Translations under genes and position numbers: made by a program | Notes under the pieces: model-generated | The model's database searches: none | Told to the model about the DNA's origin: nothing | What the model saw: only the letters and a program-made list of their open reading frames with translations | Part shown: piece by piece, positions 7,507 to 38,795 of the stretch | Numbering within the stretch: position 1 is the stretch's first letter | Layout of the letters: each line of letters starts with the position of its first letter | Assembly: GCA_019118645.1 (NCBI GenBank) | Contig: DWYN01000173.1 | Span: 1 to 48,328, forward strand | Origin: Candidatus Blautia excrementipullorum | GTDB lineage: Bacteria; Bacillota; Clostridia; Lachnospirales; Lachnospiraceae | Length of the DNA stretch: 48,328 nt | Reading direction: 5' to 3'

Positions 7507-9303
7507 CTACTCTACCGGTCTGGTGGCAGCCTCAAGCCACTTTCTGTCATCCTCCTCAAGATGAGGTGCCATCACCTCGTATACCTGTCTGTGGTAGGTG
7601 TTCAAAAGTTCAATATCACGTTTTTCCATCCACTTTGTGTCAATGGCGTCCCGATCAATCGGAACCCAGGTGAGGTTTTCAAACTGCATGAACTGGCCGT
7701 ACTCGTTTTTCTCTGCCTTTACGCAGAGCATCAGATTCTCCGTCCTGATTCCGAATTTTCCCTCAAAATACAGGCCGGGCTCGTCAGAGGTCACCATTCC
7801 CTCCTCAAAAACGGCGTTGTCCTGGCGTTCCGGAACGACCCTCCAGCGCACTCCGTTGGGACGCTCGTGCACATTCAGAAGGTATCCTACTCCGTGGCCC
7901 GTTCCGTGGTTGAAATCAAGTCCCTCTCTCCAGAGAAGCTCCCTGGCAGCCAGATCGAAGTTATACCCATGGCAGCCATAGGGGAATTTCACATTCAGAA
8001 GCCTCAGCATGCAGGCCGCAACCAGAGTAAAGTACTTCTTTTCTTCCTCCGTCACCGGTCCTAAGGCGATCGTTCTCGTAATGTCTGTGGTTCCCTCATA
8101 GTACTGACCGCCGGAATCTACCAGATAAAGCCCCCTTGGCTCCAGCTTTTTATTAGTCTCCGGTGTCGCGGAATAGTGGCAGAGAGCCGCATTTTCCCCG
8201 TATGCGGAGATGGTGTTAAAGCTCAGGCCCAGGCAGCCCTCGGTCTCCATTCTCAGGCGATCCAGATGCGCCTCAGCAGACATCTCGTCCATCTCGGTCT
8301 TGCCCACATTTTCCTTCATCCAGCGCAGGTGGCGAATCATGGCCACAGCGTCCTTGATATGGGCCTTTCTTATATTCTCCATCTCTGTCGGATTCTTTAC
8401 GGCCTTGGCGGCTGATGTGGGATTCATCTGATTCAGAATCTCATTTGTCCCGTCCAGGCTCTGGCAGATGGAAAAGTTCACATGACTCTTTTCCAGAAGA
8501 ATTCTCTCGTTCCGGAAAGCCTTCACCAGTACATAGATATCATTGTACGGCATAATTCTGACTCCCAGGCCCTCCAGGTACTCCCGTACTGCCTGGTCCA
8601 TCGTCTTCTCATTGATAAACAGGAACAGCTTTTCCTCCGTAATGACCATATAGGAGAGTACAACCGGATTGCAGGGAACGTCGTTTCCGCGGATATTGAG
8701 GAGCCATACAATGTCGTCCAGAGTTGTCAGGATATGGACTGTGGCCCTCTTTTTCCTCATCTCTTCCCTGAGCTCTGCAATCTTCTGTGCTGCTGTTTTA
8801 CCGGCATATTTCACATCCAGGACCCACACCTTTTCTGCCGGAAGCTCCGGGCGTTCCTTCCACAGAAGGCCGATCAGATCCTCCTCGCTGGAAGCCGTTA
8901 CGGCTTTCTTTTTCAGGCGGCTGAGCAGTTCCTCTCCCATCTCGTCATTCACTACGCGGCCGTCAAAGCCCAGCACACCGTTTTCCGGCATCTTATCTGA
9001 CAGGTACTCTTCGATGGTGGGCACGCCCTCCTGTCCCATCCTGAAGAGCTTCACCTCGCTGCCGTCAAGCTGTTTGCCCGCCTGGACAAAATAGCGGCCG
9101 TCTGTCCAGAGCCCTGCCTCGCTGCGGGTAATCACGGCTGTTCCTGCTGAGCCTGTGAAACCTGTAATAAACTCTCTGCACTTAAAATGATCCCCCACAT
9201 ACTCAGACTCATGGAAATCTGCTGTGGGTACCAGGTAGGCATCGATTCCGCGCTCCTCCATCAGCCCGCGGAGAGCCTCAATTCTTTCATTCACTGTATT
9301 CAT
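7507..9303 (-). CDS. Aminopeptidase P family protein (Xaa-Pro aminopeptidase)
   Basis: A 598-residue M24B peptidase of the long, three-domain aminopeptidase P type. Two creatinase-like N-terminal domains precede the pita-bread catalytic domain. All five metal ligands are visible: Asp in YLVDSGGQ (about 396), Asp in TTDITRT (about 407), His in GTGHGVG (about 470), Glu in SDEPGLYFEG (about 508) and Glu in IRTENL (about 522). It should remove N-terminal residues preceding proline from cytoplasmic peptides with two Mn2+ ions. The ATG follows CAGGAGG; in-frame codons upstream to 9351 lack a ribosome site. Confidence 0.92.
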   Translation of the reverse strand: MNTVNERIEALRGLMEERGIDAYLVPTADFHESEYVGDHFKCREFITGFTGSAGTAVITRSEAGLWTDGRYFVQAGKQLDGSEVKLFRMGQEGVPTIEEYLSDKMPENGVLGFDGRVVNDEMGEELLSRLKKKAVTASSEEDLIGLLWKERPELPAEKVWVLDVKYAGKTAAQKIAELREEMRKKRATVHILTTLDDIVWLLNIRGNDVPCNPVVLSYMVITEEKLFLFINEKTMDQAVREYLEGLGVRIMPYNDIYVLVKAFRNERILLEKSHVNFSICQSLDGTNEILNQMNPTSAAKAVKNPTEMENIRKAHIKDAVAMIRHLRWMKENVGKTEMDEMSAEAHLDRLRMETEGCLGLSFNTISAYGENAALCHYSATPETNKKLEPRGLYLVDSGGQYYEGTTDITRTIALGPVTEEEKKYFTLVAACMLRLLNVKFPYGCHGYNFDLAARELLWREGLDFNHGTGHGVGYLLNVHERPNGVRWRVVPERQDNAVFEEGMVTSDEPGLYFEGKFGIRTENLMLCVKAEKNEYGQFMQFENLTWVPIDRDAIDTKWMEKRDIELLNTYHRQVYEVMAPHLEEDDRKWLEAATRPVE

Positions 9304-9450: not shown

Positions 9451-10461
9451 TTAGAGCAGAAAAATATTGTGCTTCTCTGCCTCTGCCCGGATTCCATCGG
9501 GCCAGACGGAAGACTGCACCTCTCCGATGTGAGCCTTTCTCAGATAAAACATGCAGATTCTGGACTGGCCAATACCGCCTCCTACTGTGCAGGGAAGCTT
9601 GCCCTCCAAAAGTTCCTTCTGGAAAGTGAGCTCTGCCCTCTCCTCGCAGCCTGCCTTCTTTAACTGTTCTCTGAGCGTCTTCTCATCCACGCGGATTCCC
9701 ATGGAGGAGAGCTCCAGCGCGATATCAAGAACAGGATAGTACACGATAATATCACCGTTCAGCTTCCAGTCATCATAGTCCGGGGCCCGGCCGTCATGTC
9801 TCTCGCCGGAACGGAGCTTGTCACCTATCTGCTCAATAAACACTGCCTTGTGGAGCTTTGCAATCTTATATTCCCTCTCCTTGGGCGTGCAGTCCGGATA
9901 CATGTCCTCCAGCTGCTGTGTTGTAACAAATTCGATGTGATCGGGAAGATATCTTCCTATATATTCATATTCATACGCCATGTAGTCCTCTGTCACCTTG
10001 AGAGCCTTGTACACAGCCTTTACGATAAGCTCCAGGGTCTCCCTGGTGCGCTCCTCTCTGGCAATGATCTTTTCCCAGTCCCACTGATCCACATAGATCG
10101 AGTGGATATTGTCGGTGTCCTCATCGCGTCGGATCGCGCTCATATCTGTGTAGAGTCCCTCACCGACTCCAAACCCGTACTGCTTCAGCGCCATTCTCTT
10201 CCATTTGGCAAGGGAATGGACAATCTCAGCCGGTCTGTCGCTTTGTTCCTTGATTCCAAAGGAAACGGGGCGTTCCACACCATTCAGGTTGTCGTTGAGT
10301 CCCGACTCAGGCAGCACGAACAGCGGCGCAGACACGCGCGTTAAATTTAGCTGCTTCGCAAGCTCCCTCTGAAAAAAATCCTTGATAATCTTGATAGCCA
10401 CCTGTGTTTCCCGAAGGCCGATGGCAGGTTCGTAGTTCTCTGGTACTATTAAGTGCTCCAT
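9451..10461 (-). CDS. asnA: Aspartate-ammonia ligase (asparagine synthetase A)
   Basis: A 336-residue AsnA, close to the usual 330. Family signatures are present: [25 protein letters not shown] near residue 44, [47 protein letters not shown] and the C-terminal [23 protein letters not shown]. It makes asparagine from aspartate, ammonia and ATP through an aspartyl-adenylate, related to class II tRNA synthetases. The start has AAGGGG upstream. The 5' region was searched for a T-box antiterminator (GGTGG..CCGCG element) and none was seen. The gap to the aminopeptidase gene (9304-9450) shows no gene. Confidence 0.96.
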
Positions 10462-19987: not shown

Positions 19988-20186
19988 GGGAATTCTCCAG
20001 AAGTTTTGCGACAGCGGACTTGAGATGCGCACTTCCGGCCGTCCGGTTGTCTTCGGGTTTTCTTCCAATGGATAAACGGTATACAAATCTCAAAAAGAAC
20101 ATAGAAAAAAGAAAAATTGATTTAATTTGGAAAAGTTTTTATAAATTTCTTGCTTTTTTTGATATTAATGCTATAATAATAGACAT

Positions 20187-20260
20187 GGAAGCATAGCTCA
20201 GCCGGGATGAGCGTTCGCCTCACACGCGAGAGGTCATGGGTTCGAGCCCCATTGCTTCCA
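20187..20260 (+). tRNA. tRNA-Val (CAC), prophage integration site
   Basis: A complete 74-nt tRNA: acceptor GGAAGCA paired with TGCTTCC, D arm GCTC/GAGC, anticodon loop CTCACAC (CAC, valine), TTCGAGC T loop, discriminator A. The promoter TTGCTT-16-TATAAT lies just upstream (about 20151-20178). Phage genes begin directly downstream and run to the window edge, so its 3' end is the probable attachment site. Confidence 0.93.
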
Positions 20261-20385
20261 TTTTTTTGCGCCCTTTTATTGGCAGGTAAAATGGGAGTTT
20301 TGCTTGTAAATACAAGGGGATTGCTCATTTCTGGTGATTAATTCATATTATGCTGTGATACTAAAATATCATGGCGTAATCATAT

Positions 20386-20516: not shown

Positions 20517-23500
20517 TTACTCTTCTTCTTCCTCTTCCCAGTTTCTGAAATCCTCGTTGGTGTAAAGAGCTTTTCCTTTCACTCGAATTTTTTTCAGATT
20601 CCTTTTTATTTCCTCTTTTTCTTTTGAACTGCCGTTCCGGTAGTCTTTTTTATATTTTCGTGTGATCGAGCTTTTAATGCTGCTTCTAATAGTGGATTCT
20701 TTTACATGCGCCCTGGTCTTTTCCATAAAAATTTTGTCAGCTATTTCATTAGCCTGCTTATAATCCCCCGCTTCCATGGCTCCTATCACATCGCTGCTTT
20801 CGTACATATATGCCGGCTCGTTATCTTCTTTATTTTCTTTCTCATCTTCCTCCTCAATCTCTTCCCCCTCTTTTTTTATTTTATTGATGGCAGAGTTAAT
20901 GGATGATAATACCTGTTTTCTTGTAACTCCCTCTTTTTCTACTTCCTCAACAATTCTTTCATATGTTTCAAAGTCCCCGTTTATTTTTGCTTCTGCTGCC
21001 TCTACAATCTCATCCGAATCTTTTAAAGCCGTTTTTATGGATCGATCTATTTTTTCCTCATCGATTCCAGCCTTCTTCAGATCATCTATAATTCTGTCCC
21101 CTTTTGTTTTATTTCCCTTCAGGTACTCTGATACAGCTCCTGTGACAAAGGCTGTTGTATTCTCCTCATTCTTTATGTCAAGGCCCACTGTGCCTAATCC
21201 GGTTTCGTTTCCAAAAGCCTGCATCCCCTGATTGATTATTGCCGACGCATCTCTCTTTAAATTATAGAGTGGGACTCCTGTTAATGAGCTCGCTGTTCGT
21301 AAAATCTTGTCTGTGATTCCTAACGCATTCAGCTTTGATTCCCCGGTTGCTGCTTTTTCCAATTCTTTGGTTAAGTTGTAAATATCCTCCACTGCCTGAA
21401 CATCCGTTCTTTTTACCTCGTATCCGGAAAAGATACTTACCACGTCCCTGAGATAAGGAATCATATTCAATGGATTCAGGTTGTCAGAAAGGTTTCCTAA
21501 GACCGCGTTTACATAGCGCTCCTGATAAGGTTCTTTCTCCTTGTCTCTCAGTGCATCCACTACAGCCGCTGCCATCGCCGTCGCCACTGCCGTCTGCACA
21601 TATACCATTAAGACTTTTCCGGCCTTTTTTCTCGCTTCCTTGCTTTTGGGATTTTGGTTCAGATCGTACATTGCACGATAAAGCATATTGTAGGTCTGAG
21701 TCGGCTCTCCCATAAAGGCTGTGGCCATTTGTTTAAAAATGGTTTTCTCCCTCATAATCTGGCTTCTGTTCAGCACAGAATCTACTACCTGGGTCTTATC
21801 AATGATTTCCGTCATTCGTTCTCCAACCCTCTTGTAATATTCTTCTGTTCCTGCTTTTAATTCCGGCATTTTTTCATCAGTTTCTGCTTTGGCCGCCTCC
21901 CAGATTCTTTTCCACGTCGCTTCATCTCCCTTAGAAGCAAGCATCATGGAAGTTTCGATCAACCGCTCTCTTACCGTATCTGAACCAGTCAAAATGTTTC
22001 TAAGGGTCCTTCCCGTATGTACATCGAAAAATCCCCAATCTTTCCATTGGGCAATCGGCGCGTACTTCTTAATCATATCCCATGAGTCAGTACGGACTTT
22101 CAATCCTTTTATCAGATATTTCGGATCGATTTCTGCCGCTGCTCTTATATAGGCTGTCGGCTGCTGAATTGCCGTCCTTAAATTCGCTCCAACCGCCGCG
22201 CTCTTCATGGCTCTGGTCAGTTCTTTTGTGGTAGCCGTTTCCGAATTGCCCCCGCTGTTTATATCCAGCATCAGATTTTCAATATACCTGAGTGCTCCTT
22301 TTCCCAGCCTTCGATCCAGCATTTCTTTTATGTTTCCTGTTCCCGGCACATTATAGTTGTACCATTTCTGCAGATCGGAAAGCGGGAGCATATACGCATT
22401 GTAAACGGCCATCTTGGCAGTTCGATCCGAGAACACTTCAAAAATGTCCTCCACGTCGATTGGTTTATATGCGCCTTTTTGTGTTGACTTTGTAAAACCT
22501 AAATTTTTCAATGTCTGCGGCCGGCCCAGCGCATCTGTAGTGGTTGCGATCTGGTGCTTGTCCACAGAAATCGGAAAATAATCCCTTGCATTATACTTTT
22601 TGTAGCCGTAAAGTGTCATTGAGATCTCATTGCCCCAATCTGTTGTGACCGTCTGGAAGAAATTTGCAATCCCATCCGCTACGGCTTTTTCCTGTTCAGA
22701 CAGGGTATCGGTGATTTTTTTAACCATAGCTCTTGATAAAGGAATCGGATCCGGCGTCTTTCCTTTATAGGTTCCGACTCTTCCTTTTACGTCTCTATCC
22801 AGAAGCCTGATGCCTCTTTTTCTTTCTGCTTCCCCTTTTTCGTTATAAATGTGCAACTGCGCCTGTCTTCTCTTGTTCAGCTCATATAAAGACATGATTT
22901 CGGCGGTTGTCATCGAGAATTCTTTCCCTCCGAATTCAAATTCATGCAGTTTTGCTTTTTCTCCGCTCCACTCTTTATATTGCTGAGGGCTTACGCCATG
23001 CTCCTTTAAGAGATTTTTAAACATCGTCTCTGCCTGTCTTAAATTAACTGTTTCTTTATCTCTTCCGGATTTCAACTCCTGGTAAAGGCTCATTCCCTGC
23101 TCTCCCAGCTGCCAGAAAAAACTTAACGAATTCAGCATATCCTCTGTAAAAAGTCTCTGAAGATGCCCTATTCTTCCGGTATACTCTTTTCTCTCTTTTT
23201 TCTGTGCCTTTACCATATCTTCCGCCAGCTTTGTGACCGTTTCATAGCGCTCATTGGCATGCATCGTATTAATGCCTACAATCAGCTTCTTGATAGCAGT
23301 AACCGTTTCTTCCACCCGTTTCAGTTCTGCTTTGCTAAGATTTTCCAGCTTATCAATATTTTCTACGGTCTTTGTTAATTCTTCCATCTTGGCAGCCAGA
23401 TCCGGATCTATTTCCAAGTAATTGCCGTCCTGATCCTTGCTTTCGTTATTGATAATCCTTTCAAAGGCCGTTCTTGCTTCCAGCCACGCCTGCGTCCTCT

Positions 23501-26500
23501 TCGTGGGCTCTCCTTCATTGTTCAGACGGTTGGAAGAAAAGTCAATCATGGAGAGAAAGTTGGCCATCGGGACTTTCAGTTCTTCCGGAATATGCTTCTT
23601 ATCATTTGGTTCAAGCATCCACCTTCTTAATTCAGTGACAGTCTTAATGATCCTTTGCTTAGATTTTGAAGATTCAAGCCGATCGTTTCTCTCTCTAAGT
23701 ACCTCTTTATGATGTTCCATCAAATCTCTCAGCTTTTCGTTCTTCCGTTCGGTTAATTCCTCTATCCTTTTTTTGTAATAAGCCTTCTGTTCTGCAGATG
23801 CTTTTTCGTATTTTTCTTTTAACTCCCGAATCGTCTGTTCCCTTTTCAAAGTGTCCTGCTGCCTTTGTGCCTCATACCTGGCTTTCAGATTTTCCTTAAA
23901 GCGGTTCATCTGTTCCTGGTATTTCCGAACTGTTTCGTCGGCCTGGGCCTGAATCTTATCCGCCAGTGTGCGCGGCATATTCCTGGTATCGAAATAGCTT
24001 TCAAAAATCTCCTGTCCCAGAATAAACGATAACTCATCTATATCTGCTTCATACGGATTTTGAATCTGAGGTTTCAGGCTGTCTACAACTTCCGCAATCT
24101 GGAGAGCCTGATCTGCCGGATGCGTAATGTTCTCCGGGAATAAATCGGGGTATTTTCCAGACCACTCCTGATAAACGGTATCAATATCCGTTCCATTATT
24201 GGAAAAACGGATTTTCCCGAAATATTTTTTTCTAAACGCTTCATATCCCCCTTCTATATCCAGTTCAGAGCGGTCTGTTTCCGGAATCTTTATTGTCGTG
24301 CTGCGTATCGTCTGGAGGATATCCCTGTAGGCATTCGCCAGTTCTACGTCTTTTACTTCCGCTTTATTTAAGACAGCTCTGGCAATCGCTGTAGCCGTTT
24401 TGGTAACCTCTGCTCCGTCCACCTGCTCGCTGTCATGGATATAAGCGTATAATTTTGACAGGTTTTCTTCCAGGATTTCCTTTGAATACGTTGAATTGTA
24501 CTCTTTTAGCAGCTTTCCGGAAATTCTCCGAATATCTTCGTTTCGTGGTAAATAATCTCTGGAAAGAGTAAGCTGTTTGGCCAGAGATTCATTTATCTGT
24601 TTTAATTCCGCATTTTCTTTTACCAGAGCTTCAATATCCACATTTTCGTCCACATTTTTAAGCTGGTAGCGGAACTGACCCAGTTCTGAAATGTACGGTT
24701 TTTTCCCGCGTTCAATATAGTTATCAATATCCGTAAGAATCTTCGATGCAGAAGTCCTTTTAGGATATTTAAAATTTTCTACCGCTTCTCCCCGTTCATT
24801 TGAAAAATCAATATAGATTTCGCCGTCAAAATGATTGATGAAAGTCCTCAAACTGCTTTTTTGCTTTTCGTTCGGTTTATGAATTAAATTAATTCCTCCG
24901 CTTTCCGGATTCAAACGGATATTTCCTTCCTTCATAAACTCTATCATCGCGTCCGTTCCGCTTTCCATTTCTTTTCCATTCTCTTCATAGATATCTTGTA
25001 TATCCCGATGGTCCATCCCTCTATGCCTTGGATTTCCACTATCCTGTTTTCCGGAAAAATCGAGAAATTTCCCGTCCACTGTGAGATATCCGGCCGCCTC
25101 TATGTATCGAGTAGTTCCCAGCGTCTTTAAAGCATTTTTATACATCGTTTCCCTGGGTAATTCTTTTTTTGACAATTCTTTTTTCTGGCTTCCTTCCCCA
25201 AGTAATACCTCATAAGTTATGTCATTTCTCTCATCGCCAAAATCATATTTTCCAAGGATTTCGACCATAATATTCACCGAATCTTTCAGCTGCTGGACGT
25301 TCTTATAATTTGTAAATCCCGCCGCCTTGAATCCTTTCAGCATCCCCTGCCACTGTTTCTGTTTAATTTTGGACGGTTCTGTAAATACCACTTTCTCACC
25401 GTCCAAATAATATCCGTTATCTGCCTCCTCTATCTTTTTCTGATATCTGACTTCACTTTCCGTTTCCAGTCCAGATTTATACGTCTCCCCAGCCTTTTCC
25501 AGTCCACTAATCCAAAACTCCCGCGCATCTTCGTAAAATCTCATCTGTTCTCTCAGCTGCTTCGCCACTTTCCTTGTGCTTTCCTTGTTAATCAGGGACT
25601 TGATGGAGTCTATCATATCAGACAGAAAATCAATCACCTTTTGTGCGATGGTCTTGTCTTTCCGAACTACTTTCTCAATGAATGCCTCGTCATTTAAAAA
25701 CTCTCCGGTTGCATCTGCAACAATTTCCTCTATGAGCTGTTCGCGGGAAAGATTCTGGCCTTCGTAAGCTCTGGCATACCGCTCAATGGTTGCTTCCAGA
25801 TCTTCGGAATGAGATTCTGCCAGTGCCCATACAGCTATGTCCTTATAAACAGAGTATTCCTGCGGAGCGTACTCTTTAATGAAATGAGTCAGCTCATGGG
25901 AAGTGGTCTGAAGGAAATTGTCGCTCTTTGCAGAGATCCGGATCTGGCCAGAACCATAGGAACCCTCCGCATCTCCCATTTCATCTTCCAATACGAAGGT
26001 TAATCCCGTCTTCGTCCCCAGAGCCTCTGTAAGCCCTATCTGGCCCTTCGTTGCTGCCGATGAATGATTTACCATCCCTCCTGTTTTCGGCTGTCCCTGA
26101 GTATACTGAGGCCTCACATTCAGGGATAATCTTCGATCCATCGTTCCTGCATTCAGCGCAGCTTCCTGCTGTGCCCGATTCAATACAGCAGTGTATGCTC
26201 CCCCATCTTTAAATCCATCCGCTTCGATTCCATATCTTCCCATGTCATAGTAGCGGTTAAATGCACGGATATAATCCGGAAGCTCTACACTCGGATCATA
26301 GTTTTCTGCCGCCGCCCTCTTTCCATTCTCCTCCAGACCTGAGAACATTTCCTCCAGTTCCGCGTCTTCGCCTGTCTTTTGGGTTACATACTCCTCTGCT
26401 GCCCGTTCAATCATCGTTTGCTTTTCTGCCGCCGGATCTGTTCTTTCCTGATTTTCCAGTCCCTCCTCTTCCATTTTTTGCACTGTATTCTCCTGCCCGG

Positions 26501-27983
26501 GCAGACTCTCTCTGTCCTGAACCTTTGTTCCGGTTTCCGCTTCCTTTGTGATCGGTTCTGTCCGGTCTGCAAATCGCATGCCGGCCGCCTGCATCCCGGC
26601 TCCCATCACCCCGCCGGAAAGCGCCCCGCCGGCGGCGGACAGAAGGACATTTCCCGCCATGTCTGCCGCTGCCAAAAGACGGGCCTGCGATTCATTCTGC
26701 CCCTGTTCTCTGTAATACTGGTAGGCCTGGCTGTAGTTGGATTTTTCTCCCATAATCAGTCTGTCTGTCAATGTGTTGGAAATCTCTGTTGCCGCTTCCT
26801 CAGATCCTTCTATCAGCCCCTGCTTCGCCAGATTTTTGGCAAAATTTTTAACCCCTTTTCCAGGAGTCTGTCTTAAAGCATTCAGGTTACCAAGACTTAT
26901 TTTTTCAAACAGCCCTTCCGCTGTTCCCTGGGCTGCTCCCTGCAGTAACGCCTGTCTCTGTGTTCCTCCCCGTTCTCTGGCATCCAGATAGCCGGATGAA
27001 GCGGCAGAAAGGCCTGCGCTGAGGCCTCCCACACCGACGCCGAGCGGAATCCTTGCCAGGCTTTGTGCCATGGAAAGTCCTGTATCTGCGAGAAAATCCT
27101 TCACCGGCCCCCTTCCCAGTGCATCCTTTATTCCCTCCCTAAGCTCCTGTTCTCCCGTTACCGGCGAAAATACTGGATGATTGATATTCAGTTCATTCCC
27201 TGTCGCTTCTGCTGCCAAGGCGGCCACATACGGCTCATAAGAAGCAATCGGGGCTATCGCGTCTATTGCGGTTCCTAAGACCAGATGTTCTTTTGCCAGT
27301 TTCCTTGTTTTTTCTCTTTCATCCCGCATCCATTCTTCGTCCAGGCGTTCCCGGATAGAATCAAAATAGTCTGTAGCTGCACGGCTTCCATACTTTCCGA
27401 GGATATAATTGTAATAATCTTTTTCCTGGTCCGTCATTTTTTCCAGAGACTGGAGTCCTGCCTTGTCGAAAACATTCCTTGCAATGGACTGTGCTTTCCC
27501 TCTCCACCCTCCATCTGTTTCGCCCATCAAAATATTTTTCTCACCTTTTTCCCGATATTTTTCATAGTCCGGATCCTCGGCTGGTGAAATTGATCTGCTT
27601 TCTTTCCCGCTTCCTATGAAGACTCTTTCTCTCTGCCCGGAAGTTTCTTTTTTCTTCCAGTCCATGTATTCATTAACCATTTTCCTGCCCGGTGAAATAT
27701 CAGGCTGGGTTTTCCAGGCGTTAATTCTGCCGGTTTCTCTTCTCGAACGGTTGAGATATTCTTCAAACAGCCTTTTTCCATTTTCTAACCGATCATTTTT
27801 GTACTGAAGCGTACTCTTTTTATAATCAGGTGCTTCCCATCTCTCCTGCCCCGACGTTTTTACAATACTCGCTCCCGTTGTCTTTGTATCATTGGTTTCC
27901 TTTTTGTTTTCAAACAGCTGCGGCAAATATTCCCTCGCCGCTTTCTCCCCCTGCTTCTTCCGATCTATTTTATACCTTTCCAT
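20517..27983 (-). CDS. Giant virion (ejection) protein with zinc-protease motif
   Basis: 2,488 residues, the last gene of the late operon. Layout: charged N-terminus; an Ala/Gly-rich, partly hydrophobic region at about 290-460 that could insert in membranes; a zincin motif SHELTHF (His696, Glu697, His700); a region around 960-1080 like domains of large polyvalent phage/mobile-element proteins (VDGKFLDFSGK, RGMDHRDIQDIYEE); a long coiled coil at about 1330-1480; and helical C-terminal parts with a hydrophobic stretch (VYVQTAVATAMAAAVVDAL). The size, coiled coils and last position fit a protein packaged in the head and injected with the DNA, as P22 gp16/gp20 or T7 gp16. The ATG follows GGAGG and overlaps the upstream gene by 19 bp. 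Function inferred. Confidence 0.75.
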   Translation of the reverse strand: MERYKIDRKKQGEKAAREYLPQLFENKKETNDTKTTGASIVKTSGQERWEAPDYKKSTLQYKNDRLENGKRLFEEYLNRSRRETGRINAWKTQPDISPGRKMVNEYMDWKKKETSGQRERVFIGSGKESRSISPAEDPDYEKYREKGEKNILMGETDGGWRGKAQSIARNVFDKAGLQSLEKMTDQEKDYYNYILGKYGSRAATDYFDSIRERLDEEWMRDEREKTRKLAKEHLVLGTAIDAIAPIASYEPYVAALAAEATGNELNINHPVFSPVTGEQELREGIKDALGRGPVKDFLADTGLSMAQSLARIPLGVGVGGLSAGLSAASSGYLDARERGGTQRQALLQGAAQGTAEGLFEKISLGNLNALRQTPGKGVKNFAKNLAKQGLIEGSEEAATEISNTLTDRLIMGEKSNYSQAYQYYREQGQNESQARLLAAADMAGNVLLSAAGGALSGGVMGAGMQAAGMRFADRTEPITKEAETGTKVQDRESLPGQENTVQKMEEEGLENQERTDPAAEKQTMIERAAEEYVTQKTGEDAELEEMFSGLEENGKRAAAENYDPSVELPDYIRAFNRYYDMGRYGIEADGFKDGGAYTAVLNRAQQEAALNAGTMDRRLSLNVRPQYTQGQPKTGGMVNHSSAATKGQIGLTEALGTKTGLTFVLEDEMGDAEGSYGSGQIRISAKSDNFLQTTSHELTHFIKEYAPQEYSVYKDIAVWALAESHSEDLEATIERYARAYEGQNLSREQLIEEIVADATGEFLNDEAFIEKVVRKDKTIAQKVIDFLSDMIDSIKSLINKESTRKVAKQLREQMRFYEDAREFWISGLEKAGETYKSGLETESEVRYQKKIEEADNGYYLDGEKVVFTEPSKIKQKQWQGMLKGFKAAGFTNYKNVQQLKDSVNIMVEILGKYDFGDERNDITYEVLLGEGSQKKELSKKELPRETMYKNALKTLGTTRYIEAAGYLTVDGKFLDFSGKQDSGNPRHRGMDHRDIQDIYEENGKEMESGTDAMIEFMKEGNIRLNPESGGINLIHKPNEKQKSSLRTFINHFDGEIYIDFSNERGEAVENFKYPKRTSASKILTDIDNYIERGKKPYISELGQFRYQLKNVDENVDIEALVKENAELKQINESLAKQLTLSRDYLPRNEDIRRISGKLLKEYNSTYSKEILEENLSKLYAYIHDSEQVDGAEVTKTATAIARAVLNKAEVKDVELANAYRDILQTIRSTTIKIPETDRSELDIEGGYEAFRKKYFGKIRFSNNGTDIDTVYQEWSGKYPDLFPENITHPADQALQIAEVVDSLKPQIQNPYEADIDELSFILGQEIFESYFDTRNMPRTLADKIQAQADETVRKYQEQMNRFKENLKARYEAQRQQDTLKREQTIRELKEKYEKASAEQKAYYKKRIEELTERKNEKLRDLMEHHKEVLRERNDRLESSKSKQRIIKTVTELRRWMLEPNDKKHIPEELKVPMANFLSMIDFSSNRLNNEGEPTKRTQAWLEARTAFERIINNESKDQDGNYLEIDPDLAAKMEELTKTVENIDKLENLSKAELKRVEETVTAIKKLIVGINTMHANERYETVTKLAEDMVKAQKKERKEYTGRIGHLQRLFTEDMLNSLSFFWQLGEQGMSLYQELKSGRDKETVNLRQAETMFKNLLKEHGVSPQQYKEWSGEKAKLHEFEFGGKEFSMTTAEIMSLYELNKRRQAQLHIYNEKGEAERKRGIRLLDRDVKGRVGTYKGKTPDPIPLSRAMVKKITDTLSEQEKAVADGIANFFQTVTTDWGNEISMTLYGYKKYNARDYFPISVDKHQIATTTDALGRPQTLKNLGFTKSTQKGAYKPIDVEDIFEVFSDRTAKMAVYNAYMLPLSDLQKWYNYNVPGTGNIKEMLDRRLGKGALRYIENLMLDINSGGNSETATTKELTRAMKSAAVGANLRTAIQQPTAYIRAAAEIDPKYLIKGLKVRTDSWDMIKKYAPIAQWKDWGFFDVHTGRTLRNILTGSDTVRERLIETSMMLASKGDEATWKRIWEAAKAETDEKMPELKAGTEEYYKRVGERMTEIIDKTQVVDSVLNRSQIMREKTIFKQMATAFMGEPTQTYNMLYRAMYDLNQNPKSKEARKKAGKVLMVYVQTAVATAMAAAVVDALRDKEKEPYQERYVNAVLGNLSDNLNPLNMIPYLRDVVSIFSGYEVKRTDVQAVEDIYNLTKELEKAATGESKLNALGITDKILRTASSLTGVPLYNLKRDASAIINQGMQAFGNETGLGTVGLDIKNEENTTAFVTGAVSEYLKGNKTKGDRIIDDLKKAGIDEEKIDRSIKTALKDSDEIVEAAEAKINGDFETYERIVEEVEKEGVTRKQVLSSINSAINKIKKEGEEIEEEDEKENKEDNEPAYMYESSDVIGAMEAGDYKQANEIADKIFMEKTRAHVKESTIRSSIKSSITRKYKKDYRNGSSKEKEEIKRNLKKIRVKGKALYTNEDFRNWEEEEEE

Positions 27984-32993: not shown

Positions 32994-33476
32994 CTAATTG
33001 TTTTCCTGTGGCTCTGTGTCTATCTTATTTTTCAGTATAGCGATATAATTACACAGCCATCCTGGTACATCTGCTCCCATGCGGCCTGCGTTTTCCACGA
33101 TGGATAAAATTTCATTCAGCAAATACCATACAGTCACCAGTAGCCCGAAAATCGCCGATGCCGGCGCCTGGAAACCAAGCTGTCCCGCCGTTTTTACTAC
33201 CACATAGTCTAAAATCATGGCTGCTGCAATTACACAGACATACCCCACTTTTTTGATGATCCCCTTAGCTCCCTTTTTGGAGCTCCATCCGTAATTTGGA
33301 TCCCCTGGGTGGTCGATGGCTTCCCGCTTGCTTGCCAGCATGCCTGTGATATAGTCCACCACCATGGCAGTAAATAACAAACTCAGCAGAGGGAATAAAA
33401 TCCCCAGCTTATTGCTCAAAAACGCTCCTACAGCTGCCAGCACTCCCTGAATAGATATTACAATTTCTCTTTTCAT
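32994..33476 (-). CDS. Phage holin (toxin secretion/phage lysis family)
   Basis: A 160-residue class of Phage_holin_4_1 proteins. It has three to four hydrophobic segments (VLAAVGAFLSNKLGILFPLL; VGYVCVIAAAMILDYVVV) and the family loop VDYITGMLASKREAIDHPGD..GWSSKKGAKGI. It forms the membrane lesions through which the endolysin escapes. The start is the ATG at 33476, five bases behind AGGAGG; the ribosome site overlaps the stop of the upstream small gene, so translation is coupled. An in-frame extension to 33509 is less likely. Confidence 0.88.
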   Translation of the reverse strand: MKREIVISIQGVLAAVGAFLSNKLGILFPLLSLLFTAMVVDYITGMLASKREAIDHPGDPNYGWSSKKGAKGIIKKVGYVCVIAAAMILDYVVVKTAGQLGFQAPASAIFGLLVTVWYLLNEILSIVENAGRMGADVPGWLCNYIAILKNKIDTEPQENN

Positions 33477-33487
33477 GTCATTTCCTC

Positions 33488-33595
33488 CTACGGATTTTCT
33501 TTCATCCATTTTTCAACCGATGCTTTCCAGAGCTTCGGTACATCTTCGAGCGTTATATTTCCAGCTTTGATCTGCATCCCGTAAAATGCTCCCAT
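33488..33595 (-). CDS. XkdX family small tail protein
   Basis: A 35-residue protein with the XkdX pattern: short hydrophobic start with Phe-Tyr-Gly, then YG-X-AG-like MQIKAGNITLEDV and KLWKASVEKWMKE. The ATG overlaps the upstream stop (TAATG). XkdX proteins are encoded just before holins in many Firmicutes prophages; their role is unknown. Confidence 0.75.
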   Translation of the reverse strand: MGAFYGMQIKAGNITLEDVPKLWKASVEKWMKENP

Positions 33596-33984
33596 TATTC
33601 TCCACCTCCTATCTGCTCTGCAATCGCACTTGTTACCGAACCCAGATCGGATATTGCACCGTTCTGGATCTCCTGCCCTGCTTCCAGAGCTTCCAGGCGC
33701 CTTTCTGTGTCCGTTTTTTCCCGCAGGCTATAAGTTGTAAGGACAGATCCGTCAGAAGCCACTACAGAGGTTTCAGAGAGCAGCACAAGTTCCTTATAGA
33801 TTCCAATGGTAAGTCCGTCCCCATTCTGTACTTTTACCTCCTTCAGGTTTTCCGGCGTCAGCATCTCCCACTGCTTCAGCATAGTTTCCCGGTTTTCTGT
33901 CGCTGCCTTAATGGCATCGAGAGAAGATCCAGATTCCAGTTCGATGGTTGTTCCGTCCTTCAAAATTAATTTATCTTTGCTCAT
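33595..33984 (-). CDS. Conserved phage protein upstream of xkdX-holin
   Basis: A 129-residue protein with a beta-rich N-terminal part (DKLILKDGTTIELESGSSLD), a central region and a C-terminal helix (DTERRLEALEAGQEIQNGAI), a form often found in the tail-lysis interval of Firmicutes phages. The start is the ATG eight bases behind AAAGGAGG; a GTG three codons upstream is also in frame. It is the first gene left of the invertible region. A hairpin GCCCT..AGGGC (34023-34040) lies between them. Confidence 0.7.
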   Translation of the reverse strand: MSKDKLILKDGTTIELESGSSLDAIKAATENRETMLKQWEMLTPENLKEVKVQNGDGLTIGIYKELVLLSETSVVASDGSVLTTYSLREKTDTERRLEALEAGQEIQNGAISDLGSVTSAIAEQIGGGE

Positions 33985-34055
33985 TATGAGCACCTCCTTT
34001 ATAAAAATTTTTGTATATTAAAGCCCTTTATGATCAGGGCAGGATTATCTGGTTT

Positions 34056-34064
34056 AAATAGCGA
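34056..34064 (+). repeat. Recombination site A (AAATAGCGA)
   Basis: Leftmost copy of the 9-bp core, plus orientation, flanked by TTT and TACAG. It opens cassette A in the frame Asn-Ser-Asp. It marks the left limit of the array. Confidence 0.7.
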
Positions 34065-34266
34065 TACAGTCCATAAAGACATACAAGGCGCAATATATAA
34101 AGATATATTTGCCTATGCTACTGATGACGGAGCCGTCCTTGGAATATCTCATAAAACTGGTGATTCCATTAATCTGTCTTTTAAACCAAATGGATATATT
34201 TCAATCACGCGAAAGCATAACGGCTCATGGCTCCCAGAAATCAAACTTGCCGATGCTTGGACATAA
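34057..34266 (+). pseudogene. Silent fibre-tip cassette A
   Basis: A 69-codon segment without ribosome site, opening Asn-Ser-Asp at site A and closing with TAA at site B. The protein is beta-rich (AVLGISHKTGDSINLSFKPN, GYISITRKHNGSWLPEIKLA), like the end of a receptor-binding protein. It faces the expressed fibre gene and can be translated only after an inversion that joins it to the fixed 5' part. Not a decayed gene: it is an intact storage copy. Confidence 0.7.
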
Positions 34267-34274
34267 AATAGCGA
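34266..34274 (+). repeat. Recombination site B (AAATAGCGA)
   Basis: Identical 9-mer in plus orientation at the junction of cassettes A and B; its first base is the last base of the TAA stop of A. Confidence 0.7.
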
Positions 34275-34557
34275 GTTAGGCGTCCTGAAAAACACCGATA
34301 CAGCAGCCACACTGGATGATGTTAAACGAATTTTGACAAATGAGTTTAACAAATTAAGCCTTGGCCACTATTCGCTATTAAGGTTACCCTTTTCAGCAAG
34401 TTTTTCTCCTTTTTATGGTGGCTCTCATGCCGTTTTTATAACCCGGTTATTGGATAAATACGGAATAGCCCAGTTCCTGTGCTACCAAAATTCAGGAGTA
34501 CGTTTAATTTATATGAGTTTTAATAACGGAAGTTGGAATGACCCCATGGCAAAATAG
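34267..34557 (+). pseudogene. Silent fibre-tip cassette B
   Basis: A 96-codon segment opening Asn-Ser-Glu at site B and ending with a TAG that lies within site C. It starts with a helical stretch (LDDVKRILTNEFNKLSLGHY) and continues with a beta-rich aromatic part (PFYGGSHAVFITRLLDKYGI, FNNGSWNDPM). No start codon with a ribosome site precedes it. Intact storage copy, opposite to the fibre gene. Confidence 0.7.
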
Positions 34558-34560
34558 CGA
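34552..34560 (+). repeat. Recombination site C (AAATAGCGA)
   Basis: Plus-oriented 9-mer between cassettes B and C. The stop TAG of B is inside the site itself. Confidence 0.7.
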
Positions 34561-34804
34561 GTTCCAATCCGGGAGGAATAGTATTGAGCGAACCATAGGA
34601 GGGATTACATCCAAAGAAATTATCTTTCCAAAAGCATTTTCGTCTGTGCCGGCTGTTACGGTTGCCGCTGAAACAGGTTCGGTAGAATCCGGAATAATGA
34701 CGATCCGAGATGTTTCCAGCACGGGTTTTACTGCATATACTCACTCAAAGGACACTAATTCTCCCATGGGGTTTTGCTGGATCGCGGTAGCGCTGAAATC
34801 ATAA
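34553..34804 (+). pseudogene. Silent fibre-tip cassette C (H-type lectin fold)
   Basis: An 83-codon segment starting Asn-Ser-Glu. The protein has the pattern of an H-type lectin tip: IIFPKAFSSVPAVTV, TIRDVSSTGFTAYT and a C-terminal GFCWIAVALKS. Such domains bind sugars in tail fibres. It has a near-copy in inverse orientation (cassette E, 36042-36293), from which it differs at nine of 83 residues, mostly in the first half. Confidence 0.75.
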
Positions 34805-34894
34805 TTTTACTGCCAAATTCTTACTCCATTTTGCCCTTCCCGTGTCTTCTCCCATCCACTCTTTTTACTCTTCATTGTTTATCTAACCACAAAA

Positions 34895-34916
34895 AGGCCA
34901 CCCCGCAGGCCGGCCT
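34895..34916. terminator. Symmetric terminator beside the recombinase gene
   Basis: AGGCC / GGCCT stem with 12-nt loop and A/T runs on both sides, 26 bp past the recombinase stop. It can work in either direction, which matters because it lies in invertible DNA. The rest of 34805-34941 shows no gene. Confidence 0.65.
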
Positions 34917-34941
34917 AAAAAATCTTATTTAACCGGCCTTT

Positions 34942-35964
34942 TTACGCTGCCGATAAACGTCTGAAAGACTCTCTGACGTTATCTTGCTTGATATTGCAGT
35001 AGATCAGCGTCGTCTCCATCTTAGTATGTCCCATGAGTACCATGACCTCTTCTATCCGCATCCCTCTTGCTAACAGATCCGTCGCAAATGTCCTTCTAAA
35101 CCGGTGTGGATGAACATTCCCCACTCCTGCGGCCCTTCCTATCTGTTTTAACAGGTACTGCACTCCTGCCGGAGTCATACGATTATAGGGTTTCTTGGTT
35201 GCTACAAACAGAGGTTTCTCTGAGAGTTGTTCCAGAGTCAGCCCTTCTTTTTTCATTCGCTCTTGCAAGTACCTGAACAGATGGAAGCAGGCCGAATCTG
35301 TTACATACAGCTTCCGTTCCTTGCGTCCCTTTCCCATTACTTTAAACTCCTGCTTGTACAGGTCAATGTCTCCAACATTAAGGCTGCACAGTTCTGAGAC
35401 TCGAAGCCCTGTGCTTAAAAGAAACTCTATCAAGGCTCTATCCCTTGTTCTGGTGCAGGAAAGACGCATCGCTTCCAAATCCCTGCTTGTATATGCCTGC
35501 TTGATTGTACTTTCAATTTTCAATGTGCCAATTCGCTTGATTGGGTTTTCTTTTGCCATTTTTTCGGCCGTCAAAAACTCCCAAAAGCTGTTGAGATAAC
35601 GCATCCGGTTCTGAAGCGTTACCATGCTGATTCCCTGCCGCTCTCTTAGCATCCCGAAATACCAGCGCAGATCCATAACCGTCATATCATCAAAACACTT
35701 GTTGATTGCTGTCCGGCAGCTGCTGATCTCTCTGAGATACTGCTTTAAGGTATTATCCTGCCTGCCACAGATTTTTTTGCTGGCAACAAACAGCTTAACT
35801 TTATGTGTATCTCCGTCAGTCCCTGTGTTCTGCAGCTCATATTTGTCCTCTGCAATTTTTTTGCCGTGGAACTGGATGTAAAGGACATTCTGAAGCCTGT
35901 CCAACTGTTCCTCATCCAGATATTCCGCCATCTGTCTTACTACATTCATTAACAATTCTTCCAT
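34942..35964 (-). CDS. Tyrosine recombinase of the fibre inversion array
   Basis: A 340-residue tyrosine recombinase. The N-terminal part (about 60-135) is a core-binding SAM-like domain. The catalytic set is complete: Arg188 (STGLRVSEL), Lys in GKGRKERK (212-215), His287 and Arg290 (HPHRFRRTFAT), His313 (LMGHTKMETT) and nucleophile Tyr322 (LIYCNI). It lies in the centre of the tail-fibre array, flanked by the inverted cassettes C and E, and not at the prophage end, so it is probably the invertase for the AAATAGCGA sites and not the integrase. The ATG follows AAAGGAG. No clear promoter of its own: transcription may come from the fibre operon. Confidence 0.88.
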   Translation of the reverse strand: MEELLMNVVRQMAEYLDEEQLDRLQNVLYIQFHGKKIAEDKYELQNTGTDGDTHKVKLFVASKKICGRQDNTLKQYLREISSCRTAINKCFDDMTVMDLRWYFGMLRERQGISMVTLQNRMRYLNSFWEFLTAEKMAKENPIKRIGTLKIESTIKQAYTSRDLEAMRLSCTRTRDRALIEFLLSTGLRVSELCSLNVGDIDLYKQEFKVMGKGRKERKLYVTDSACFHLFRYLQERMKKEGLTLEQLSEKPLFVATKKPYNRMTPAGVQYLLKQIGRAAGVGNVHPHRFRRTFATDLLARGMRIEEVMVLMGHTKMETTLIYCNIKQDNVRESFRRLSAA

Positions 35965-36041
35965 TTTGCTCTCCTTTCGCGCTTAAGCATAACAAAAAAG
36001 CGGAAAAAGAGCTGCTGTTTTGTAAGATTTCAATGGTAAAA

Positions 36042-36293
36042 TTATGATTTCAGCGCTACCGCGATCCAGCAAAACCCCATGGGAGAATTAGTGTCCTTTG
36101 AATGAGTATATGCAGTAAAACCTGTGTTGGAAACATCTCGGATCGTCATTATTCCGGATTCCACCGAACCCGTCTCAGCGCAAACCGTAACAGCTGGTAT
36201 AGACGGAAATGCTTCCGGAAAGATAATTTCTTTGGATGTAACCCCTCCTATGGTTCGTTCAATGCTATTCCTCCCGGCTTGGATATCGCTATT
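36042..36293 (-). pseudogene. Silent fibre-tip cassette E (H-type lectin fold)
   Basis: An 83-codon segment on the same strand as the fibre gene, opening Asn-Ser-Asp at site E. It is the inverted near-duplicate of cassette C (EIIFPEAFPSIPAVTV, GFCWIAVALKS). Together they form an inverted repeat of about 250 bp around the recombinase gene. No ribosome site; it can be expressed only by joining to the fixed fibre part. Confidence 0.75.
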
Positions 36294-36294
36294 T
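36286..36294 (-). repeat. Recombination site E (AAATAGCGA)
   Basis: Minus-oriented 9-mer between cassettes D and E; the TAA stop of D overlaps its first two bases. Confidence 0.7.
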
Positions 36295-36640
36295 ATCGAA
36301 GCTGGATGGCCATTAAAGTACCCATGTATTTGTAGGTTTTGCCGGAGTATCCATAGCCATATAGGTTAATAGTTACATCTACTGTAGGCTCTACAAACAT
36401 CCAGTTAGCACAACCTCCTCCCGAGTGCATCGTTGTTCGCGCCGTTGCTCCTCCAATAACACGAGCATCACCGACACATTTAAGGGATGCGCCCATAATG
36501 CTACTACTGTCACTGTCCGACGTTGTCAGGTTACACAAAATGAGGTATTGATGCCCCGGCTTAAGGGTAAGCGAACATATTATTTTGTCTGTACCGTAAA
36601 CAGCATCGATCTCATTATACGCGGTTATAATATCGCTAAT
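36293..36640 (-). pseudogene. Silent fibre-tip cassette D
   Basis: A 115-codon segment directly behind the expressed fibre tip, in the frame Ile-Ser-Asp. The protein is beta-rich (KIICSLTLKPGHQYLILCNL, ..GGGCANWMFVEPTVDVTINL, YGYSGKTYKYMGTLMAIQL), resembling the head domain of a fibre tip. The stop TAA is in site E. Same strand as the fibre; reaching the fixed part needs two inversions, or a deletion of cassette F. Confidence 0.7.
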
Positions 36641-36641
36641 T
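36633..36641 (-). repeat. Recombination site D, variant (AATTAGCGA)
   Basis: One-base variant of the 9-mer (third position T), minus orientation, at the end of the expressed tip. The flank CTCAGTTAA before it is identical to that of the expressed junction. The stop of the expressed fibre overlaps it. Confidence 0.6.
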
Positions 36642-37467
36642 AACTGAGATAGACAGCATTTATGCTAATGTGTTTATTAGTTAAATCATCAGTATAAGTA
36701 GATGGTTTATTTATATTAATGAGGCCATCACTGCCAATGTATACATAGAGTATTGTTTCTGGAACCCCCCATTGCGAACTTGCAATATATCCATAAATTT
36801 TAATAGAACGATATGGTTTATTTTTGATAATAGTTGCTACAACATTAGGAAGATCATTTCCTGTAACGATTAAAGCGAGCTGAATCTCAATGATTCTTCC
36901 GTATTTGAGCATGTAATTTTCAGCTTTTGAATCAGTAAAATCATACCCGTTTTTTAACTCTATGAAATTTGTAGTGTTGGAAATGTACTCCAATTCAAAC
37001 TCGCTATTTAACTGAGCAAATTTATCCGCCAATATTTTACCCTGAGTTGCGTCCAAGGGATTTCCTGGCTGCGTTGCAAGGAGGTTATTGACGATCTGGC
37101 TTTTCAGAATATAGTTTGCCAGTTTATTTTGAAGCGCAGTATTCGTGACCAACTCTTTCGTCATCTTATCAGCAATCTTGTCCATCAGTGTCTGGGCGCT
37201 TACTACCCCTCCCGGTTCCCCAAGCAAACCGCTTGTATCCTTAGCATTTACCGTATCCAACATATTTTGAATAAAACCTTTTGCCAGATACATCCAATTT
37301 GCTCCATCTGCAGTCGGGACTCCTTCTGGATGCTCTTTTAGTGCAACGTATGTGGATCCCTCGTAATATACCGCGTTCATTATGTGGTATTCCGTTTCAG
37401 GGTCATACTCTCCTTTGTATGCAATCCCTATTACCGCCAGTTTTTCATATCCTTCTGGTATCGCCAT
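36640..37467 (-). CDS. Receptor-binding tail fibre, expressed form
   Basis: 275 residues. The first 153 (fixed part) begin with a carbohydrate-binding-module-like segment (YKGEYDPETEYHIMNAVYYE, STYVALKEHPEGVPTADGAN), then a helical shaft (TLMDKIADKMTKELVTNTAL) ending FAQL. At the site (37001-37009, coding Asn-Ser-Glu) the variable 122-residue tip begins, with beta-rich YISNTTNFIELKNGYDF and YRSIKIYGYIASSQWGVPE. The tip should contact the bacterial surface and fix host range. The ATG follows AAGGAGGTGG, 13 bp after the upstream gene. The five other cassettes in the array can replace the tip. Confidence 0.82.
   Translation of the reverse strand: MAIPEGYEKLAVIGIAYKGEYDPETEYHIMNAVYYEGSTYVALKEHPEGVPTADGANWMYLAKGFIQNMLDTVNAKDTSGLLGEPGGVVSAQTLMDKIADKMTKELVTNTALQNKLANYILKSQIVNNLLATQPGNPLDATQGKILADKFAQLNSEFELEYISNTTNFIELKNGYDFTDSKAENYMLKYGRIIEIQLALIVTGNDLPNVVATIIKNKPYRSIKIYGYIASSQWGVPETILYVYIGSDGLININKPSTYTDDLTNKHISINAVYLS
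37001..37009 (-). repeat. Recombination site F at the expressed junction (AAATAGCGA)
   Basis: Minus-oriented 9-mer inside the fibre gene, between fixed and variable parts, encoding the Asn-Ser-Glu link. Right limit of the array. Confidence 0.75.
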
Positions 37468-37480
37468 TTATACCACCTCC

Positions 37481-38413
37481 TTATATAATCGCCCAGCACA
37501 GCACATTATCATCAAATACCTTGAAATCTACTCCAACCCCTGTTTTCATATACAGGCTCATGGATTCTATATCTACATAAAATCCAGGAGCTATAATCTT
37601 GGAATATGTCTCGGCCCTATCCGCTTCTACCTTCGCGCGCTCTGCCTGCATTTCCGATTGGCTTGCATAATATTTGCTGTTGTTTGTATCTTCCCCTTCT
37701 CTGGCCCCTGTTTTTCCAATGGCCCAACTTTCAGAAAGAGTTGCGCTTTCCGCAGAACTGTCTGCCTGTTCCTTCGCGGTTTCCAACTCGCCCTTATAAT
37801 CTTCCAGAAAAGTATCGATCTTTTCGTCTCTTTTTTTATCCGCCTGTTCCCGCTTTATTTCGTTTTGCTGTCTCTGTTCCTCATTCTTCTTCCATTCATC
37901 CTGATTTTTGTCAACTTCTGAAATCTTCCCGTCAACGATTTTTTCCAGTTTTTCCGTCTCGTCTTTAAAATCCTGCTTCAGCTGTTCCTGCTGCTTGATA
38001 ATATCCTGTTCAAGCTGCTCAAACTCTGTCAGCCCTCCCTTATAGTTTCCCGGTGTGTTAATTACATCTTCAATATACACCGGAGCTTTAAAGGAAGCGT
38101 ACTTTACTTCTCCGTTTGAATTATACCCTCTCAGGTTTACCAGAGCCGTCCCCGGAACCTGCAGCATCGGAGACAGAATATTCCAGTGCAGGAGAATGTA
38201 CTCCTCCTGCACCTCTTTTCTCAGAGCCGTTGTATCGTAAGCATCGTTTTTGTACTGCAAATCAAGATAATAATTCAGATCGGAAAGATCGTTCCCGCCC
38301 GACGAGTGACGATCCAGACGAAAAATCCGTTCCCCTACCTGGTTATCATAGGTTGTGCCGATACGATCCTCTCCGGACGGAAACAACAACTTTTGGTTTT
38401 TTACAATTATCAT
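37481..38413 (-). CDS. BppU-like upper baseplate/tail protein
   Basis: A 310-residue protein. The N-terminal about 115 residues look like a BppU-type domain (RIGTTYDNQVGERIFRLDRH, then EEYILLHWNILSPMLQVPGT and VYIEDVINTPGN). Then comes a long coiled coil from about 125 to 210 (QQEQLKQDFKDETEKLEKIV) and a C-terminal segment ESWAIGKTG..NNSKYYASQS typical of fibre shafts. It probably links the fibre to the tail. It precedes the fibre gene by 13 bp. The ATG has AAAAGGAG upstream. Confidence 0.75.
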   Translation of the reverse strand: MIIVKNQKLLFPSGEDRIGTTYDNQVGERIFRLDRHSSGGNDLSDLNYYLDLQYKNDAYDTTALRKEVQEEYILLHWNILSPMLQVPGTALVNLRGYNSNGEVKYASFKAPVYIEDVINTPGNYKGGLTEFEQLEQDIIKQQEQLKQDFKDETEKLEKIVDGKISEVDKNQDEWKKNEEQRQQNEIKREQADKKRDEKIDTFLEDYKGELETAKEQADSSAESATLSESWAIGKTGAREGEDTNNSKYYASQSEMQAERAKVEADRAETYSKIIAPGFYVDIESMSLYMKTGVGVDFKVFDDNVLCWAII

Positions 38414-38426
38414 ACCGGCTCCTTTT

Positions 38427-38795
38427 CTACAGCAGCTTTCCTAAGCCTTCTTCGTATTGCTCCTCCTTTTTCTCCATGTAGAGATCCGCTAACTCTCTCT
38501 GTGACATGGCATTCTCCAGCACCTCTGCAACAGATTTCGGTACCATTACTGTCTTTCCTCTCGGAACAATCGTTGTTTTTCCGTTTACCGTCACTCTCTC
38601 GTCATCACGGTAGCGCTCTCCGTCACGGAACAGACGGATCGGAACCATTTCCTCCCCTTTCTTTCCGGTTTTTCCAGTCTCCTCTGCTGCCATTTCTTTC
38701 TCTGCTGCCATTTCTTTCTCTGCTGCCACTTCTTTCTCTGTTGTCATATTTTCTGTTCCGGCTTTTACTCCCTCTGATTTTGTTCCTCTTGCCAT
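38427..38795 (-). CDS. Small neck/head protein with Glu-Lys-Ala repeats
   Basis: 122 residues. The N-terminal part has six-residue repeats EKEVAA/EKEMAA/EKEMAA (18-bp DNA repeats, about 38690-38745). The rest, VPIRLFRDGERYRDDERVTV and VPRGKTVMVPKSVAEVLENA, is a form common in phages with N4-gp56 capsids, directly after the capsid gene. A structural or assembly role is likely but unproven. The ATG has AGGAGG upstream. Confidence 0.65.
   Translation of the reverse strand: MARGTKSEGVKAGTENMTTEKEVAAEKEMAAEKEMAAEETGKTGKKGEEMVPIRLFRDGERYRDDERVTVNGKTTIVPRGKTVMVPKSVAEVLENAMSQRELADLYMEKKEEQYEEGLGKLL

Follow-up and report, generated by a model that had tools for sequence, protein, structure and literature searches.

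The window analysed here, a stretch of 48,328 nucleotides from Candidatus Blautia excrementipullorum, corresponds to one complete contig (G000:C126). Its initial 20 kb is in large part occupied by bacterial genes and is followed by a minus-strand prophage, in which a terminase, a P22-like portal, a capsid protein and an internal virion protein were recognised and which appears to run past the contig end. The P22-like portal and the internal virion protein match suggest, rather than establish, the short tail that the original prediction had attributed to this phage. A tRNA-Val gene (window 20186-20261) lies near the left end of the prophage, the other end being seemingly beyond the contig, and is a possible integration site. 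A phage protein of 2488 aa encoded at window 20517-27983 matched no Pfam family and one PHROG of unknown function, phrog_22978.

Within the prophage, positions 34056-37467 of the window hold an array made up of a fibre gene, six C-terminal cassettes and a recombinase gene. Its features, together with the gene upstream, are the following:

37481..38413, minus strand: upstream gene in phrog_25888, to which the fibre gene of relative L115 has a match as well
37010..37467, minus strand: constant N-terminal part of the tail-fibre gene (ORF), 153 codons, ending ...AQL
37001..37009, minus strand: site F, AAATAGCGA, joining the constant part and the expressed tip
36640..37008, minus strand: cassette F, the currently expressed tip, 122 aa from the site, stop included
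36633..36641, minus strand: site D, AATTAGCGA, one base different
36293..36640, minus strand: silent cassette D, 115 aa
36286..36294, minus strand: site E, AAATAGCGA, by sequence match
36042..36293, minus strand: silent cassette E, 83 aa, gp53-like C-terminal / H-type lectin-like (Pfam, PHROGs)
34942..35964, minus strand: tyrosine recombinase, putative invertase, 340 aa (PF00589, E 1.3e-34)
34552..34560, plus strand: site C, AAATAGCGA, by sequence match
34553..34804, plus strand: silent cassette C, 83 aa, gp53-like / H-type lectin-like
34266..34274, plus strand: site B, AAATAGCGA, by sequence match
34267..34557, plus strand: silent cassette B, 96 aa
34056..34064, plus strand: site A, AAATAGCGA, at the outer end of the array
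34057..34266, plus strand: silent cassette A, 69 aa

The fibre ORF (37467-36640) begins with a fixed part of 153 codons that precede the site, as had been predicted, and the last of these codons shares its third base with site F. Cassettes A, B and C are located on the plus strand and F, D and E on the minus strand, with the recombinase gene between C and E; coordinates and strands thus bore out the prediction of three silent cassettes on the opposite strand and two on the same strand, with a tyrosine recombinase between them. The claim of six same-frame cassettes starting at a 9-mer, one copy of which carries a 1-bp change, also held. All six cassettes are open and in one phase throughout, their starts at the site encoding N-S-D/E or I-S-D, and in A, B, D and F the stop codon overlaps the site that follows. 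Five of the six sites are identical, and the one-base variant is the copy located just after the fibre gene. As for the predicted six tips, six open cassettes are present and they represent five kinds of tip, since C nearly duplicates E (89% aa identity; inverted repeat of 273 nt at 90%, 34552-34824 / 36022-36294); apart from this pair, the cassettes of the window are mutually dissimilar at E 1e-3.

The fibre gene matched phrog_30004 over residues 72-221 (PHROGs, 5e-16) and, weakly, Phage_fiber_rpt in Pfam. Neither Pfam nor PHROGs produced a match for cassettes A and B, nor did Pfam, PHROGs or the phage collection for cassette D, and Rfam gave none at 33000-38500. A structure model of the fibre reached a mean pLDDT of 35 and, being useless, was set aside.

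Chance tests on the repeat showed that the 9-mer count taken alone carries modest weight: one Markov-1 sequence out of 1000 and two real control windows out of 74 also had five copies within 3.5 kb, on both strands. When each copy additionally had to be followed by a 60-250 aa ORF, all of them in one phase, none of the 74 control windows reached four copies and the window reached five. Matches with one mismatch were not significant alone (22 in the whole window vs 14.6 expected, a number reached in 4 of 100 shuffles), so that site D rests on its frame and stop placement. The TAATAGCGA at 34372 is probably a chance occurrence. The fibre start codon sits inside AAATGGCGA (37461-37469), which has the same letters as the array site of Clostridium transplantifaecale described below; this copy is out of cassette phase, was rejected as a true site and is probably also due to chance.

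The recombinase gene is full length, and the Pfam domains of its product were confined to Phage_integrase and the integrase N-terminal domain, not those of the resolvase (serine recombinase) family. Residues R188, H287, R290, H313 and Y322, which we take to be the catalytic ones, were invariant across the aligned relatives. No HsdS match was found within 4 kb of the gene in the window. Scans of the viral contigs, for which two recombinases and the constant fibre part served as queries, yielded one partial match of 31% and two blanks, with no close relative, and searches of the phage collection with the constant part, the C. transplantifaecale array L031 and cassette D gave no match. In 15 viral loci with a related portal (L149-L163), several of them short, neither the recombinase nor the constant fibre part was matched. 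The gap between the capsid protein and gene 419 measured about 0.8-1.7 kb in the ten of these loci that matched both, and about 7 kb in the window, where it is occupied by the fibre array and lysis genes, as if these had been inserted.

The nearest recombinase (74%) belongs to C. transplantifaecale Marseille-P8228 (L031). The sites there read AAATGGCGA and occur five times in L031 and eight times at the end of another contig (L035), and at least 11 distinct cassettes were counted in all (X, c2, c3, c4 and seven in L035). Sheath_initiator and Baseplate_J matches point to a contractile tail for this prophage. A contig break at which 201 bp of X start one contig and the first 127 bp of X end another was considered as a sign of a mixed population and rejected as proof of switching, because a second, fixed copy of X accounts for it equally well or better, given that the last L035 cassette was nowhere seen joined to c4. 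A more distant recombinase (about 35%; G004, locus L036) accompanies seven cassettes at AAATAGTAA in a prophage whose SPP1_Dit and Prophage_tail matches indicate a siphovirus-type tail. Relative to its fibre gene, this recombinase points the opposite way compared with the window, as inversion of a central segment would give. The arrays span from 6 to at least 11 cassettes.

With profile A1 at E <= 1e-40, at least 62 of 397 family genomes matched (at most five candidates were scored per genome), and six of those, the window's own included, formed a close group above 450 bits (G000, G484 twice, G473, G657, G746 twice, G541). At E <= 1e-80, profile A2 found matches in 15 of 391 genomes of the class sample and in 3 of 299 of the phylum sample, counting the window's own genome, and no other match above 293 bits was found in these two samples. 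In the recombinase tree, the close clade contains nine loci including the window, eight of which have at least four sites T[AG]G[CT]GA and cassettes in one phase; the ninth, L113, has no comparable array. One cassette of L110 is shortened to 44 codons. A detector of 9-mers plus ORFs was passed by 13 of the 61 relative loci, window included, so most distant relatives are not arrays like that of the window. A strict half-site detector selected 7 of the 61 loci, and of ten control half-sites one selected a single locus and nine selected none; the matches in L115 and L120 were discarded as sites, since they look like shared coding sequence. When the fibre genes of ten relatives were scanned against PHROGs, five matched tail families, those of L110 and L031 had no match beyond phrog_30004 and families without known function, that of L111 matched one weak family of unknown function, and those of L112 and L036 matched nothing.

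Two relatives provide a natural comparison of array states. L109 and L110, whose recombinases are 54-55% identical to that of the window, are two copies on one single contig (G484:C1, 6.9 Mb) of an assembly rated 8% contaminated. Between them, a 563-bp segment bounded by sites at 8166 (plus) and 8697 (minus) runs in opposite directions at 98.8% identity, while the flanks stay collinear (97.5% on the recombinase side and 84% on the far flank), and the breakpoints of the inversion fall inside the shared ...ATATAGTGATTTAGCT site. The sequence shared by both copies starts at another such site, so that sites may also mark cassette exchange between prophages. Related prophages had been proposed as a source of other array orders; they yielded the same layout and this clean inversion, and no other order of the window's own phage, for which a single arrangement was seen (one contig). 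In another genome (G459), three related recombinase modules (L128, L129 and L130) carry segments in differing orientations.

The best explanation for the locus is, with high probability as judged from sequence, a shufflon-like inversion array that switches the fibre tip, with the adjacent tyrosine recombinase as inverter. The anatomy, the layouts of the relatives and the L109/L110 inversion all support this part of the original prediction; the novelty attached to it was too strong a claim, as discussed below. The recombinase would pair two oppositely oriented copies of the short site and the DNA between them would invert, the site being composed, in our model, of a left arm (TAAAT or near), a 4-bp centre that is AGCG in the window, and a right side with at best part of ATTTA. 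Inversion between F and A, B or C would bring a silent cassette in frame with the constant part in one step, and D and E would reach it only after two inversions. The same numbers of steps were obtained in a label-only simulation in which opposite sites recombined, which gave 240 arrangements with all six tips reachable and no cassette joined by the wrong end. The tip is probably the receptor-binding end, given its position and the lectin-like nature of C and E; a lysogen or a burst would mix phages with different tips, and the switch would probably let the prophage change the bacterial surface that is bound. For this phage we infer the switching activity, the exact crossover, receptor binding and the effect on host range. 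One consideration against the array model is that directly repeated sites should carry a risk of cassette loss.

An inactive remnant, in which fibre fragments gathered by past recombination no longer invert, would agree with the single arrangement seen, with the changed base in one site and with the broken cassette in the relative L110. We consider it improbable, since decay should have damaged at least part of the array and none of the six frames is interrupted, the full-length recombinase retains its conserved residues and five sites out of six are the same. It is less probable still that the recombinase is the integrase of the prophage or a stray XerC/D-type enzyme and that the repeats mark only homologous exchange of cassettes between phages. 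PHROGs does name the family of this protein integrase, no other integrase was found among the prophage proteins scanned (a partial ORF set from a prophage apparently cut by the contig end), and the start of the L109/L110 shared sequence at a site is what cassette exchange would give. However, the protein scores below the XerA, XerC and XerD cut-offs, its gene lies inside the fibre array across phages of different tail types, and a clean inversion at the site is seen between relatives.

Diversity-generating retroelements and serine-recombinase switches are both described for phage receptor-binding proteins in the sections consulted of PMC8778435 and PMC6109161, respectively. Either is highly unlikely at this locus, where the recombinase is a PF00589 protein and not a resolvase, and where the cassettes, C and E excepted, are too dissimilar to be point-varied copies of each other. 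Inversion of a multi-cassette array by the tyrosine recombinase remains the preferred reading.

The original prediction held such a tyrosine-recombinase fibre shufflon to be undescribed, which was wrong, since Rin (PMC6109161) and a locus of Eggerthella lenta (PMC8778435) precede it according to the excerpts used of both papers. Rin (Mavrich et al. 2018, PMC6109161) is presented in those excerpts as a tyrosine-recombinase shufflon of Bifidobacterium breve/longum prophages that acts on a receptor-binding protein through an 11-bp site, and its inversions were observed. As far as the excerpts describe it, Rin shares with the window a tyrosine recombinase encoded within the fibre locus (with a presumed receptor-binding role in the window), a constant N-terminus with alternative C-terminal cassettes in one phase, and a short asymmetric site that occurs inside the gene, just past its end and before each cassette. 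It differs, on the same basis, in its hosts, in its site (TTCCCTAACCC, compared with AAATAGCGA in the window), in the recombinase being at the array end, whereas that of the window is mid-array with three cassettes on each side, and in that its inversion was seen, whereas the window is known from sequence. The Rin recombinase, taken from viral contigs, is about 25% identical to that of the window over 190 residues and sits on a very long branch, and hence the window recombinase is not of the Rin lineage. The E. lenta clade 1 prophages carry, as described in PMC8778435, a Rin-like shufflon with an 8-bp asymmetric site, ttccgtat; it has in common with the window a tyrosine recombinase, a short site and small tip genes, which often encode an H-type lectin domain, and it differs in site sequence and host, the two being set side by side by description only. 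Among openly licensed literature, we found no Clostridia fibre shufflon and no array with a mid-array recombinase. The category is known from Rin; the window looks to work like Rin in a separate lineage, and its enzyme group and DNA site look new. Tyrosine-recombinase fibre shufflons are thereby extended past the two published Actinobacteria cases found here to prophages of three tail types, and a testable site and centre, together with a natural inversion pair, are now in hand.

The target of the R64 shufflon is a pilus adhesin. Its recombinase Rci, as outlined in the portions used of PMC11852207, resembles the window system in being a tyrosine recombinase with a one-sided site and several segments between sites, and differs in being a plasmid system whose sfx site has 12-bp arms and a 7-bp core, a comparison made by site description. 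Gin, Cin and Min, as mentioned in PMC6109161, likewise switch a fibre tip by inversion; those are serine recombinases, unlike the window enzyme. From the text available of PMC5903667, inversions occur at hsdS genes, and four Proteobacteria species invert prophage structural genes, chiefly tail fibres. The sections consulted of PMC11318856 made no mention of inversion. PsrA of Streptococcus pneumoniae is an invertase switching HsdS, according to the extract of PMC11709252.

HsdS also appeared among the relatives of the window recombinase. Outside the close clade (nine of the 61 loci examined), HsdS was matched within 4 kb in 25 of 52 relative loci, and both of the HsdS loci that were tested contained PF01420. 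TAAAY-N4-ATTTA sites on both strands, mostly four in +-+- order, were present in 17 of the 25 (L012, L046, L048, L121, L123, L126, L132-L134, L137-L140, L142-L145), which are likely phase-variable restriction systems. A palindromic-site detector selected 21 of the 61 loci compared with 12 of 183 Markov-1 controls, namely the 17 HsdS loci, three fibre loci (L111, L122 and L131) and L041, whose match looks like background. In a tree of 60 loci plus Rin (L051, of 219 aa, was too short and was excluded), the HsdS-associated enzymes fell outside a 30-row set (100/100) containing all 14 enzymes labelled fibre-associated, the label being provisional for L113, which lacks a comparable array, and for L120, whose fibre gene was outside the scan; the other 16 rows of the set are without an assigned target, and support for a narrower 22-row set was weaker (91/79). 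The HsdS-associated relatives have the same layout of left arm and 4-bp centre as the window site. They differ in their target, a restriction specificity subunit, in their near-palindromic sites and in their separate part of the tree; PsrA was compared by the description in its source extract only.

In the fibre sites, the left arm is shared and the 4-bp centre is constant per element and varies between elements (AGCG, GGCG, AGTA, AGTG). Mean numbers of bases agreeing with ATTTA in the right arm were 3.2 (window), 2.25 (L031), 2.1 (L035), 1.1 (L036) and 3.0 (L114) in arrays, and 5.0 (L109), 5.0 (L110), 4.75 (L111), 4.0 (L112) and 2.5 (L115) in paired modules. Agreement of the left arm with TAAAT was, in the same order, 4.5, 4.25, 4.4, 4.7 and 4.0 in arrays and 3.75, 3.75, 4.5, 2.75 and 3.5 in paired modules. 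The arrays thus keep the left arm better and the paired modules, L115 apart, the right arm, and only HsdS sites are clearly two-sided.

It is possible, although we hold it doubtful, that one group of tyrosine invertases serves both HsdS switching and phage fibre-tip switching with one site design (TAAAY, 4-bp centre, ATTTA), which would be translated as N-x-N-L in HsdS and as N-S-D-L in the paired fibre modules. The right arm would have decayed in multi-tip arrays, leaving a one-sided site that, by analogy with Rci, would favour inversion over deletion, so that long rows of directly repeated cassettes could exist. In the parts consulted of PMC11852207, Rci is proposed to be restricted to inversion by its one-sided sites, and sites that had been made symmetric supported excision as well as inversion; that one-sidedness acts likewise in the fibre arrays is a hypothesis. 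Against the joint reading, the right-arm trend has an exception in L115 (paired, 2.5 of 5), and the left arms of paired modules are weaker (2.75-4.5 vs 4.0-4.7 of 5 in arrays), so these modules are not fully two-sided either; coding constraint is a confounder of both arm trends. We recognised no work linking fibre and HsdS recombinases in the openly licensed literature. Were the link true, phages and bacteria would vary attack and defence by related enzymes, and a comparison of one-sided and two-sided sites would bear on how such systems avoid deletion.

A near-duplicate pair of cassettes in opposite orientation was also observed in three of the four multi-cassette arrays, at 89% aa identity in the window, 100% in L031/L035 (L031 7115-7315 / 9472-9672) and 91% in L036 (6180 / 8763), and not in L114. 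Such pairs perhaps arose from recombination between replicating copies.
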